Positions 56,735-59,251 of a DNA stretch of 64,000 bases are shown one piece after another. The notes beneath the pieces are model-generated. The model saw nothing but the letters and a program-made list of their open reading frames with translations, was not told where the DNA came from and made no database searches. The DNA comes from Agrobacterium larrymoorei (GTDB lineage: Bacteria; Pseudomonadota; Alphaproteobacteria; Rhizobiales; Rhizobiaceae), in the NCBI RefSeq assembly GCF_013322225.1, contig NZ_JAAMFB010000016.1, positions 248,001 to 312,000 of the forward strand, written 5' to 3'. Each line of letters starts with the position of its first letter. Position 1 is the first letter of the stretch. The position numbers and the translations under genes were made by a program.

Positions 56735-58444
56735 CTACTTCGCCCGCTCTTCCAACACCCGATTCGCAGCAGAGACAATTGCTTCCAGCGATGCAGCGAC
56801 AATGTTCGTGTTCACCCCTGCGCCGAACAGCTTGCCGCCGGGGTGCTCCATCTCGACATAGGCGATGGCCGAGGCGTTGGAGCCGTGTTGGAGGGAGTGC
56901 TCGGAGTAGTCGTTTACCGACAGATCGATGCCGAGATAGGTGGAGAGCGCATTGATGAAGCCGTCGATGGGGCCCGTACCCTTGCCTTCGATGCGCTTGA
57001 TCTCGCCATTGTCGGTGATTTCTGCCGCAACCACACGCACGCCCTTGAAATCACCCGCTGGATATGTGTGGTGATCCACGAATTTCAGGCGTGCGCTCGG
57101 CTGCGTCACGTAACGCTCGATGAAGCGTTCGTGGATGCGTTTGGCAGGCAGTTCTACGCCTTCCTCATCGGTGATGCGCTGGATGTCCTCGCGGAATTCC
57201 ACCTGGAGATTGCGCGGCAGGTTCAGGCCATAATCCTGCTGCAGGATATAGGCGATGCCGCCCTTGCCAGACTGCGAGTTGATGCGGATGATCGCCTCGT
57301 AGGAACGGCCGACATCCTTGGGATCGATGGGCAGATACGGCACTTCCCAGACCGGATGGTTGGCGACCTTGATGGCCTTCATGCCCTTGTTGATCGCATC
57401 CTGATGCGAGCCGGAAAAGGCAGTGTAGACCAACTCGCCGACGTAAGGGTGGCGCTCGGGGATCGTCATTTCGTTGGAATACTCATAGACGGACTTGATG
57501 CGTTCGATATCGGCGCAATCCAGTTCCGGGTCCACGCCCTGCGTGAACATGTTCAGCGCCAAGGTCACGACGTCCACATTGCCCGTGCGCTCGCCATTGC
57601 CGAACAGCGTTCCCTCCACGCGGTCCGCACCTGCCATCAAGCCCAGTTCCGTTGCGGCGATGCCGGTGCCGCGGTCGTTATGCGGGTGCAGCGAGATGAT
57701 GACGTTTTCGCGGTTGTCGATGTTGCGGCACATCCATTCGATCTGGTCGGCGTAGATATTCGGCGTCGCCATCTCCACTGTCGAAGGCAGATTCAGGATC
57801 AGCTTGTTCTCAGCCGTTGGCTTAACTTCCGCGATGACAGCGTTGCAAATTTCCAGCGCAACTTCCAGCTCGGTACCGGTAAAGCTTTCCGGAGAATATT
57901 CGAAGCGATAACCGCCACCGGCCTTCGCCGCCATGTCGGTGATCATCTTGGCCGCATCGACAGCGATCTGCTTGATGCCGTGCACGTCCTTGCCAAACAC
58001 CACCCGGCGCTGCAACTCGGAGGTGGAATTGTAGAAGTGGATGATCGGGTTTTTCGCGCCTTCCAGGGATTCGAACGTGCGGGTGATCAGTTCCGGGCGG
58101 CACTGCACCAGCACCTGCAAGGACACATCTTCCGGCACGCCGCCTTCTTCCACGCACCAGCGGGCGAAATCGAAGTCGGTCTGCGAGGCAGACGGGAAGC
58201 CGATCTCGATTTCCTTGAAACCCATATCCAGCAGCAGCTTGAACATGCGGGCCTTGCGATCATGCCCCATGGGGTTGACCAGCGATTGGTTGCCATCACG
58301 CAAATCCACCGAACACCAGATCGGTGCCTTCTCGATGGTCTTGCCCGGCCATGTGCGGTCAGGAATATTGATGGTGGGATATGGGCGATATTTTACGCCT
58401 GCTTCCGGCATGCCTTTGGAAAATTTATTGTTTTTCGCGTCCAT
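56735..58444 (-). CDS. leuA: 2-isopropylmalate synthase
   Basis: 569 residues of the long LeuA form; the first committed step of leucine synthesis from 2-ketoisovalerate and acetyl-CoA. VDLRDGNQSL binds the metal and substrate, SLHPHNDRGTG provides the His pair, and GNGERTGN follows. The C-terminal part (about 430-569) is the leucine-binding regulatory domain, ending in a Gly/Ala-rich stretch (GAGVNTNIVAASLEAIVSAA). ATG 58444 has AAGGAG at good spacing. The 255-base leader with a Leu-rich small frame upstream suggests attenuation. Monocistronic. Confidence 0.96.
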   Translation of the reverse strand: MDAKNNKFSKGMPEAGVKYRPYPTINIPDRTWPGKTIEKAPIWCSVDLRDGNQSLVNPMGHDRKARMFKLLLDMGFKEIEIGFPSASQTDFDFARWCVEEGGVPEDVSLQVLVQCRPELITRTFESLEGAKNPIIHFYNSTSELQRRVVFGKDVHGIKQIAVDAAKMITDMAAKAGGGYRFEYSPESFTGTELEVALEICNAVIAEVKPTAENKLILNLPSTVEMATPNIYADQIEWMCRNIDNRENVIISLHPHNDRGTGIAATELGLMAGADRVEGTLFGNGERTGNVDVVTLALNMFTQGVDPELDCADIERIKSVYEYSNEMTIPERHPYVGELVYTAFSGSHQDAINKGMKAIKVANHPVWEVPYLPIDPKDVGRSYEAIIRINSQSGKGGIAYILQQDYGLNLPRNLQVEFREDIQRITDEEGVELPAKRIHERFIERYVTQPSARLKFVDHHTYPAGDFKGVRVVAAEITDNGEIKRIEGKGTGPIDGFINALSTYLGIDLSVNDYSEHSLQHGSNASAIAYVEMEHPGGKLFGAGVNTNIVAASLEAIVSAANRVLEERAK

Positions 58445-58579
58445 TATCTTGCTCCTTCCACGCACCGGGGCTGAAAAGCCTTCGCAGATGCGCGCCCGAA
58501 CGGGCCTTAATCCAGTATCAATTGAGATTTCGAGTTGAGGAGCGTTCGCATCAGCGGGCTTTCGGCCGCCGGGCGCTCC
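58445..58579 (-). promoter_or_regulatory. leuA leader hairpins
   Basis: A 9-bp stem pairs TGAGGAGCG (which holds the leader-peptide stop codon) with CGCTCCTCA: bases 58574-58582 with 58536-58544. A second stem, GCCCG with CGGGC (58493-58504), lies nearer leuA. Such alternatives fit a leucine attenuator, but no clear U-run follows the second stem, so a Rho-independent step is not shown. Confidence 0.5.
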
Positions 58580-58699
58580 TCACTGGACCCGGCAACCGCG
58601 TGTAAGGTCGAGGCTAAGAAGCGAGAGTGCACCGCACGGCGAAGCGCTCGCAGAAATCTGCGCGCTCATGCCGGAAAAAGTTTCGGTGCAACTGTTCAT
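58580..58699 (-). CDS. Candidate leucine leader peptide for leuA
   Basis: 39 residues. Positions 25-32 read LSLLSLDL, five Leu in eight residues, followed by a stop codon inside a hairpin. The leader ATG lies where transcription should begin: TATACA ends 6 bases before it and TTGTCA lies 17 bases further up, so the transcript would be leaderless. This is the layout of the S. meliloti trpL leader as I recall it. Too short for ordinary gene finding; a stall on Leu codons would control leuA. Confidence 0.6.
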   Translation of the reverse strand: MNSCTETFSGMSAQISASASPCGALSLLSLDLTRGCRVQ

Positions 58700-58705
58700 G
58701 AGGTT

Positions 58706-58734
58706 TGTATAAACAGCCGTTTTTGATCTGACAA
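58706..58734 (-). promoter_or_regulatory. Sigma70-type promoter of leuA leader
   Basis: TTGTCA (58729-58734), a 17-base spacer, TATACA (58706-58711). The expected start point is 6-7 bases later, at the A of the leader ATG (58699). Confidence 0.65.
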
Positions 58735-58758: not shown

Positions 58759-59001
58759 CTATTTCAATGGCTGGTCGCCACCAAGCTTTTCGGTGATCAA
58801 TTCAGCGAGCAAAGACTGACGCGTCGTGCCGAGACGAGAGGCCTCTGCATCAACCTTCTTCAAAAGCCACTTCGGCAGATCGACCTCGACATGTTCGGTT
58901 TCAACGCCAGGGCGAATGGCCTGAGACCAATCAACGTAGTCGCTGACGTCCTCACCGTCATCGAACCGTCGGTCGAATTCTTCAGCATTGATCGCCTTCA
59001 T
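58759..59001 (-). CDS. brnA: BrnA-family antitoxin
   Basis: 80 residues from ATG 59001. The C-terminal part (PKWLLKKVDAEASRLGTTRQ and on) is a ribbon-helix-helix DNA-binding domain, and the N-terminal half is acidic (FDDGEDVSDYVDW), as in BrnA. It overlaps the toxin gene by 20 bases. BrnA normally binds and inhibits BrnT and represses its own operon. Confidence 0.85.
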   Translation of the reverse strand: MKAINAEEFDRRFDDGEDVSDYVDWSQAIRPGVETEHVEVDLPKWLLKKVDAEASRLGTTRQSLLAELITEKLGGDQPLK

Positions 59002-59251
59002 AATGCTGCCTTTCCTTGTCTCGCGCCCGTCTGACGGAAATGATTCGGACGCGACCATCTCTATACGTAAAGATCGTGCTCCAGATTTTATCATGAAGCT
59101 TAGCGACCATAATATATCGCTCCTCGCCTTCCATTGCGAGTGGTGCGATTAACCTTCGTTCATCAAGCCATAAACGCTGGGCATCGACAAAATCAATGCC
59201 GTGCTTGTCCTTGTTACCAGCGCTTTTCGCAGGATCGAATTCGAATTCCAT
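58982..59251 (-). CDS. brnT: BrnT-family ribonuclease toxin
   Basis: 89 residues. FEFDPAKSAGNKDKHGIDF at the start and TYRDGRVRIISVRRARDKER at the end are the BrnT signature; the Arg-Arg-Ala stretch and Glu are part of the RelE-like active region. BrnT is an RNase that halts translation; it is paired with the antitoxin gene downstream on the same strand. AGGCGG precedes the ATG. It lies 12 bases after benE. Confidence 0.88.
   Translation of the reverse strand: MEFEFDPAKSAGNKDKHGIDFVDAQRLWLDERRLIAPLAMEGEERYIMVAKLHDKIWSTIFTYRDGRVRIISVRRARDKERQHYEGDQC

Follow-up and report, generated by a model that had tools for sequence, protein, structure and literature searches.

We analyzed the sequence upstream of leuA in a 64,000-nucleotide stretch of the Agrobacterium larrymoorei genome (contig NZ_JAAMFB010000016.1, positions 248,001 to 312,000; below, the window) and found a leucine-rich leader frame whose last codons form part of a conserved set of RNA stems and whose leucine codons are complementary to the Shine-Dalgarno (SD) sequence of leuA. 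On the strength of the sequence comparisons, we consider it fairly probable that this element is the alphaproteobacterial counterpart of the LEU element of Actinobacteria and that a leucine-starved ribosome on the leader would free the leuA SD. The leader frame, the spacing of its promoter, the stems, a pairing of leucine codons and SD (stem D) above its controls, the absence of a terminator, and the co-occurrence with leuA are all observed directly. The accessible text of the 2005 paper on the LEU element (PMC1262725) leaves the element without a mechanism, and we found none proposed since in the literature searched. If our reading is right, leucine would control the translation of leuA via codons with a second role as anti-SD. 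The missing terminator would then be explained, and the element would supply a leader family that Rfam lacks. The Rhizobiaceae include the laboratory model Sinorhizobium meliloti and offer more than 100 sequences for comparison, making the question testable.

Leader Frame and Its Conservation in the Family

The preliminary description of this region had placed a 39-codon leucine-rich frame (LSLLSLDL) 6 bases behind a TTGTCA-17-TATACA promoter, and the coordinates were reproduced (Table 1). The run has five leucines within eight codons, and the end of the leader lies 135 nt from the start of leuA in the window. The stop codon TGA (58582-58580) had been placed inside a 9-bp stem, which we recovered: the stop opens TGAGGAGCG (58582-58574), pairing with CGCTCCTCA (58544-58536). 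As had also been noted, no U-run follows this stem in the window. Our automatic promoter scan omits the TTGTCA/TATACA site because it accepts only T as the sixth base of the −10 hexamer; by eye, most of the 64 relatives used for statistics (below) show a TTG-containing −35-like sequence at about this position.

Table 1. Positions of the leader features and of leuA within the window
Feature	Position	Strand	Sequence or description	Basis
−35 hexamer	58729..58734	(-)	TTGTCA	Sequence
Spacer between TTGTCA and TATACA		(-)	17 nt	
−10 hexamer	58706..58711	(-)	TATACA; 6 nt upstream of leader ATG, suggesting a leaderless start	
Leader frame	58580..58699	(-)	39 codons + TGA; peptide MNSCTETFSGMSAQISASASPCGALSLLSLDLTRGCRVQ, then stop	
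Leu-codon run	58604..58627	(-)	CTC TCG CTT CTT AGC CTC GAC CTT = LSLLSLDL; putative sensor and probable anti-SD	
CTTA motif	58603..58606	(-)	At the last Leu codon	Conservation
Stem B, 5' arm	58587..58598	(-)	CGGTTGCCGGGT; last leader codons	A2, 58 sequences
Stem B, 3' arm	58563..58574	(-)	GCCCGGCGGCCG	A2, 58 sequences
Stem A, 5' arm	58575..58582	(-)	Within the loop of B; holds the leader stop codon	A2
Stem A, 3' arm	58536..58543	(-)		A2
Stem C, 5' arm	58566..58571	(-)	Alternative hairpin inside A; excludes B	Window pairs by eye
Stem C, 3' arm	58552..58557	(-)		Window pairs by eye
Stem D, 5' arm	58616..58622	(-)	GCTTCTT; inside the Leu run	Duplex energies and folds
Stem D, 3' arm	58451..58457	(-)	AAGGAGC = leuA SD; 7 pairs, one G-U	
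leuA	56735..58444	(-)	2-Isopropylmalate synthase, TIGR00970 type	Pfam and TIGR00970 above cut-off

leuA was present in 115 of the 121 genomes of the family. To the 30 loci taken from family-genome matches we added the best 80 named loci of a second collection, giving 110 loci (L002-L111), among them that of the window. Upstream of leuA, every one of them has an ATG frame with four or more Leu codons in eight (110/110). The frames end in LLLLGLTRGCRVR, LLLLGLIGDRRVR, or variants thereof before the stop, the C-terminal motif by which our scripts pick the leader frame having been chosen post hoc and the frame of L097 re-picked by hand. For statistics, the 110 loci were thinned to 64 with less than 82% identity, of which 58 entered the alignment (A2). 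A BLASTN search of the region against plasmid records matched only 58625-58554 or part of it, from the Leu run to the stem, with 85–92% identity in six records of Rhizobium, Shinella, and Sinorhizobium. An S. meliloti record (L116) carries the element as well.

A covariance model built from A2 matched 114 of the 121 family genomes, 22 of the 58 alignment rows coming from the searched genomes and thus matching by construction. In total, 116 of the 117 matches sit 24–221 nt upstream of the aligned leuA start and on the same strand, a tight link between leader and leuA. The exception, a weak second match in genome G033 (E 0.0065), lies inside a long reading frame and was taken as chance. None of the six genomes without leuA has a match. 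G119 and G106 each carry a second leuA copy with an element of its own, 53 and 24 nt, respectively, upstream of the aligned start. The sole leuA-bearing genome without a match is the reduced, 1.1-Mb genome G006, in which the element is recognizable and looks decayed. In this genome (locus L164), the leader continues beyond its normal stop codon and stem A has a degraded look; leuA is retained.

Promoter Spacing and Transcript Start

Among 71 offsets tried, 32 of the 64 loci had their best sigma-70-like site ending 6 or 7 nt upstream of the leader ATG, and the mean promoter match over all 64 peaked at the same two offsets. As the leader ATG was chosen for a frame length closest to 40 codons, this peak was not selected by the promoter score. 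The 15 nt before the leader ATG paired with the anti-SD with a mean of −1.1 kcal/mol, compared with −2.2 for random upstream sequence and −5.3 for leuA, whose starts had been selected by best SD; an SD-like pairing of −2 or stronger was still seen before the leader ATG in 27 of 64 loci. The leader transcript probably starts at the AUG itself and is leaderless.

According to the accessible parts of two reports (PMC10117765 and PMC7298713), rnTrpL of S. meliloti, a member of the same family, starts at the ATG of trpL. As the frame studied here probably does, trpL encodes a leader peptide on a leaderless transcript ahead of a biosynthetic gene. The likeness to trpL had been pointed out before our analysis, and it holds in part: the spacing is conserved and the SD-like pairing weak, but trp leaders of the family often have an intrinsic terminator, with rnTrpL released as a small RNA, whereas the leuA leader has no terminator. 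The accessible text of PMC10117765 mentions a small open reading frame upstream of leuC, not of leuA.

Alternative Stems and a Possible Pseudoknot

Stem B comprises 12 pairs, and 99.6% of its cells were paired across the 58 sequences of A2; for stem A, of which we counted six pairs (58580-58575 with 58543-58538), the proportion was 96.8%. Two-sided, compensatory changes were found at six of the 18 pairs, a number reached in none of 500 shuffles, and structures slid along the alignment paired 30–50% of cells vs. 98.7% for the real A and B. Related sequences may beat shuffles even when no structure is present, and we therefore give more weight to the slid control and the two-sided changes. Pairing of the 5' arm of stem C with the stretch behind it was above its own shuffled mean in 55 of the 58 sequences.

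With the 5' arm of A lying in the loop of B, the two stems can form an H-type pseudoknot, of which the 9-bp stem reported earlier would be one half. The alternate stems that the preliminary description had suggested looking for are thus present as the conserved A and B and a favored C that excludes B. The overall fold stability of the window's leader is unexceptional (z −1.16). A competing pairing, TCCAGT:ACTGGA (58587-58582 with 58516-58511), appears in the predicted fold and was recognized by eye only in the closest relatives.

Pairing of the Leucine Codons with the leuA SD

The Leu run paired with the SD of its own leuA at a mean of −17.9 kcal/mol, compared with −16.9 for swapped pairs (1 of 2000 permutations; 64 loci) and −13.8 against 671 other gene starts (p 5e-12). 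On average, the own SD was better than 58% of the swapped SDs. In 17 of 64 loci the leuA SD outdid all the other starts present there, and in 53 of 64 it outdid their median, the leuA starts having been picked by best SD and some of them probably being wrong. When whole leaders were folded without constraints, the SD window had 7.96 expected pairs with the Leu-run window vs. an average of 1.60 over windows. The Leu-run window was in the top 10% for SD pairing in 43 of 64 loci and had at least three expected pairs in 45; in the other 19, for example L084, stem D had fewer than three. The window's own locus is among the intermediate cases, with 7.0 expected pairs in D and a rank of 0.88 for the Leu-run window, outside the top 10%; in its minimum-energy fold, the Leu run pairs with the start region of leuA and not with the SD of stem D. 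Outside the family, the own D was modestly above swapped pairs (24 of 2000 permutations; 34 loci).

The choice of leucine codons is strongly biased. Of the Leu codons in the last 16 codons of the leader, 310 of 353 are CTT or CTC, vs. 602 of 2394 in leuA itself. The bias fits a pairing with the purine-rich SD and could equally reflect the use of one tRNA-Leu isoacceptor. The pairing between Leu run and leuA SD points to translational control, as in the actinobacterial LEU element.

A Model of Translational Control

In the model that we favor, the leader RNA would adopt either the pseudoknot of B and A or, alternatively, the hairpin of A and C, and stem D would join the Leu run to the leuA SD. 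With charged tRNA-Leu in ample supply, the ribosome would leave the leader, the pseudoknot and D would form, and leuA translation would be low. When leucine is short, the ribosome would stall on the CUY codons and cover the 5' arm of B as well as the anti-SD; by covering the Leu run it would free the leuA SD, the direction of the response being likewise predicted. Another candidate anti-SD, the 3' arm of stem A, was rejected on the reasoning that it would act in the wrong direction for a biosynthetic gene.

More tentatively, the element may belong to a class of ribosome-sensing regulators common to the Alphaproteobacteria and the Actinobacteria and associated with one type of leuA. In this class, the regulatory codons would be the anti-SD, the pseudoknot would be built from the last codons of the leader, and CUUA would serve as a recognition or stalling signal. 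We regard this wider proposal as plausible, a little short of probable.

Terminator-Like Sites and Attenuation

The region had first been interpreted as a case of ribosome-mediated attenuation by leucine. The leucine leader and its conserved Leu codons stand; transcription attenuation at an intrinsic terminator finds no support. A terminator-like site between leader end and leuA was found in one of 64 loci, compared with 2.75 in mononucleotide shuffles, and no hairpin with a U-run was found upstream of leuA in the window. Being rarer than in shuffles, such sites make intrinsic transcription attenuation unlikely. As a control, the same kind of site was found upstream of trpE in 13 of 30 family regions vs. 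3.5 in shuffles, with the orientation of the regions guessed from the open frame and wrong, by its looks, for at least L169. TGGTGG is present in 25 of the 30 trpE upstream regions.

Termination could instead depend on Rho, with the untranslated stretch behind the leader stop serving as a Rho entry site that stalled ribosomes or the pseudoknot would shield. The loci inspected have about 100–260 nt of untranslated sequence after the leader stop and no intrinsic terminator, and Rho was proposed for cys leaders lacking a terminator in the accessible part of PMC1262725. Such a mechanism does not explain why the Leu run should pair with the leuA SD, and we consider it unlikely.

We think it still less likely that the leader works by classical attenuation, with stalling on the Leu codons letting B form and so preventing a terminating hairpin of A and C. 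The layout would suit it: B and C are mutually exclusive, A encloses C, and their order relative to the Leu codons is right. The scarcity of terminator-like sites in comparison with trpE is against it, as is the finding of a U-rich stretch directly behind stem A in only three of 63 loci. Of the 63 loci, 20 do have a TTTT in the stretch from stem A to leuA vs. about five in shuffles, rarely after a hairpin; the excess might reflect a second promoter or a linker rich in A and T.

Occurrence beyond the Family

A class-wide search with the covariance model, applying strict filters, gave matches in 10 of 385 genomes at E ≤ 0.01, the window's own included. Five of the nine others adjoin leuA (L120, L121, and L123-L125), and four (L122 and L126-L128) have no leuA within the fetched stretch. 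leuA was found class-wide in 55 of 190 genomes, again including the window's own, and loci from 29 of the 54 others could be used. Together with the five model matches by leuA and six loci from the plasmid collection (four alpha- and two betaproteobacterial), they make up a set of 40 wider loci.

In 27 of these 40, stem B follows a CTTA. Stem A was beyond chance in the wider loci overall (p 0.0012), and, taken singly, seven of 27 were equaled by no more than five of 50 shuffles. CTTA was the tetramer most often preceding the stem (28 of 40 loci; the next, ACTT, 19) and is often part of CGACTTA.

Several other Alphaproteobacteria have tandem CTTA-plus-stem places before leuA (L124, L125, L130-L134, L136, L139, L142, L143, and L153), and L124 has two Leu-rich frames. 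In Burkholderia (L160), no such leader was found within the stretch examined. On a Cupriavidus megaplasmid with a betaproteobacterial leuA copy (L161), a long Leu-rich frame ends in SLLLSLPIGCRA and its stop before a possible stem.

Constraint on RNA and Peptide

Within the family, 60 of 64 loci have CTT as their last Leu codon with an A directly behind it, at a constant spacing to the stop, and only L098 lacks CTTA within its final 45 nt. Mean entropies at codon positions 1, 2, and 3 were 0.33, 0.64, and 0.57 between the last Leu codon and the stop, compared with 0.87, 0.85, and 1.20 in the Leu run and 0.68, 0.60, and 1.07 in leuA (60 loci). In this end segment the third position thus varies less than the second, which indicates conservation of the RNA there. 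CUUA is kept beyond the needs of the peptide. In the Leu run, third positions vary more, and the apparent sign of RNA constraint is the choice of CTT and CTC. A +1 frameshift after CUU-A was considered and dropped: this frame stays open over a median of 34 codons vs. 28 in the other alternative frame, with no clear signal.

This excess of conservation, together with the recurrence of CUUA upstream of distant alphaproteobacterial leuA genes, would be expected if a protein or tRNA bound the pseudoknot and CUUA and translation of the leader were secondary; the accessible text of Seliverstov et al. 2005 (PMC1262725) preferred a protein for the LEU element. We hold such binding to be quite improbable as the main mode of control, since the Leu codons, the spacing of the promoter, and the place of the stop are conserved jointly and only a translated frame needs these. 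The candidate protein named in PMC1262725 is, by the part of that paper available to us, confined to Actinobacteria.

A role in trans had been mentioned for the trpL peptide, and for the leuA leader we consider a trans-acting product, whether peptide or small RNA on the pattern of peTrpL or rnTrpL, very improbable: a small leaderless transcript is likely, as for S. meliloti trpL, and low identity would be compatible with such a role, peTrpL being hardly conserved between species by the accessible accounts, but residues 1-20 of the leader have a mean identity of only 17.5% (60 loci), and in the segment that runs from the last Leu codon to the stop it is the RNA that is conserved.

Comparison with Known Leaders

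Leader peptides with Leu codons are familiar from the leucine pathway of enterobacteria (Leu_leader in Rfam); unlike that leader, the element described here has no Rfam match and no terminator. In translational attenuators of the ermC type, a stalled ribosome frees a downstream SD, whereas here the control codons would themselves act as anti-SD, with leucine rather than a drug as the signal. Neither the window nor 20 related loci gave an Rfam match above the gathering score, and a permissive search gave one snoRNA model only (E 2). In the literature searched, which took in few subscription papers, no alphaproteobacterial leuA leader was described, and an earlier description is possible.

The closest likeness is to the LEU element before actinobacterial leuA. 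As far as the accessible text of Seliverstov et al. 2005 (PMC1262725) goes, it consists of a leader with a Leu run, a pseudoknot or alternative hairpin, and a base stem between Leu codons and the leuA SD, and its mode of regulation was left open. By the accessible part of PMC8079986, leuL1 of Streptomyces lividans is leaderless and lacks a typical terminator. Our element shares the Leu-run leader, the pseudoknot or alternative hairpin, the stem of Leu codons and leuA SD, the absence of a terminator, and a homologous LeuA. It differs in its alphaproteobacterial hosts, in the stem sequences, and in leader length, which is 36–41 codons in 59 of 60 family loci vs. 13–16 in the actinobacterial leaders (PMC8079986 and the loci compared here); CTTA, present in nearly all family loci, is found in two of four actinobacterial leaders.

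We compared five actinobacterial leuA loci, from Nocardia, Nonomuraea, Microbacterium, Tsukamurella, and a Streptomyces plasmid copy. Four have a Leu leader with the same order of stems, B being 11–12 bp and A 5–7 bp long; the plasmid copy (L118) has no such leader. Stem D was clear in one of the four (L115), the windows of the other three being mis-anchored. The family model hit the right place in Nonomuraea (E 0.0019), its only significant match of the four; in Nocardia, Tsukamurella, and Microbacterium it also pointed to the right place, at E 2-5, with a chance match elsewhere in Nocardia scoring better. LeuA identity was 54–56% to Nocardia, Nonomuraea, and Tsukamurella and 52% to Microbacterium. 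With every architectural feature tested held in common, common descent with the actinobacterial LEU element appears likely, not proven.

Mutations in the leuA leader of Streptomyces coelicolor had some effect, inconsistent with classical attenuation, and the Leu-codon mutations are concluded to be without influence on regulation (both from the accessible text of PMC1262725). Such behavior can be expected if the same bases sense and pair; it can equally be read against ribosome sensing.

Gene Neighborhood

The leuA product of the window has the Pfam domains HMGL-like, IPMS_D2, and LeuA_dimer, the allosteric domain included. Between a BenE transporter gene and the leader lies a pair of genes for a BrnT toxin (PF04365) and a CopG-type antitoxin (PF12441) at 58759-59251 (-), ending about 25 nt upstream of the −35 hexamer of the leader. 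The trpE(G) gene of the same genome is located about 5 kb past the end of the window (G000:C1:316920-319070).
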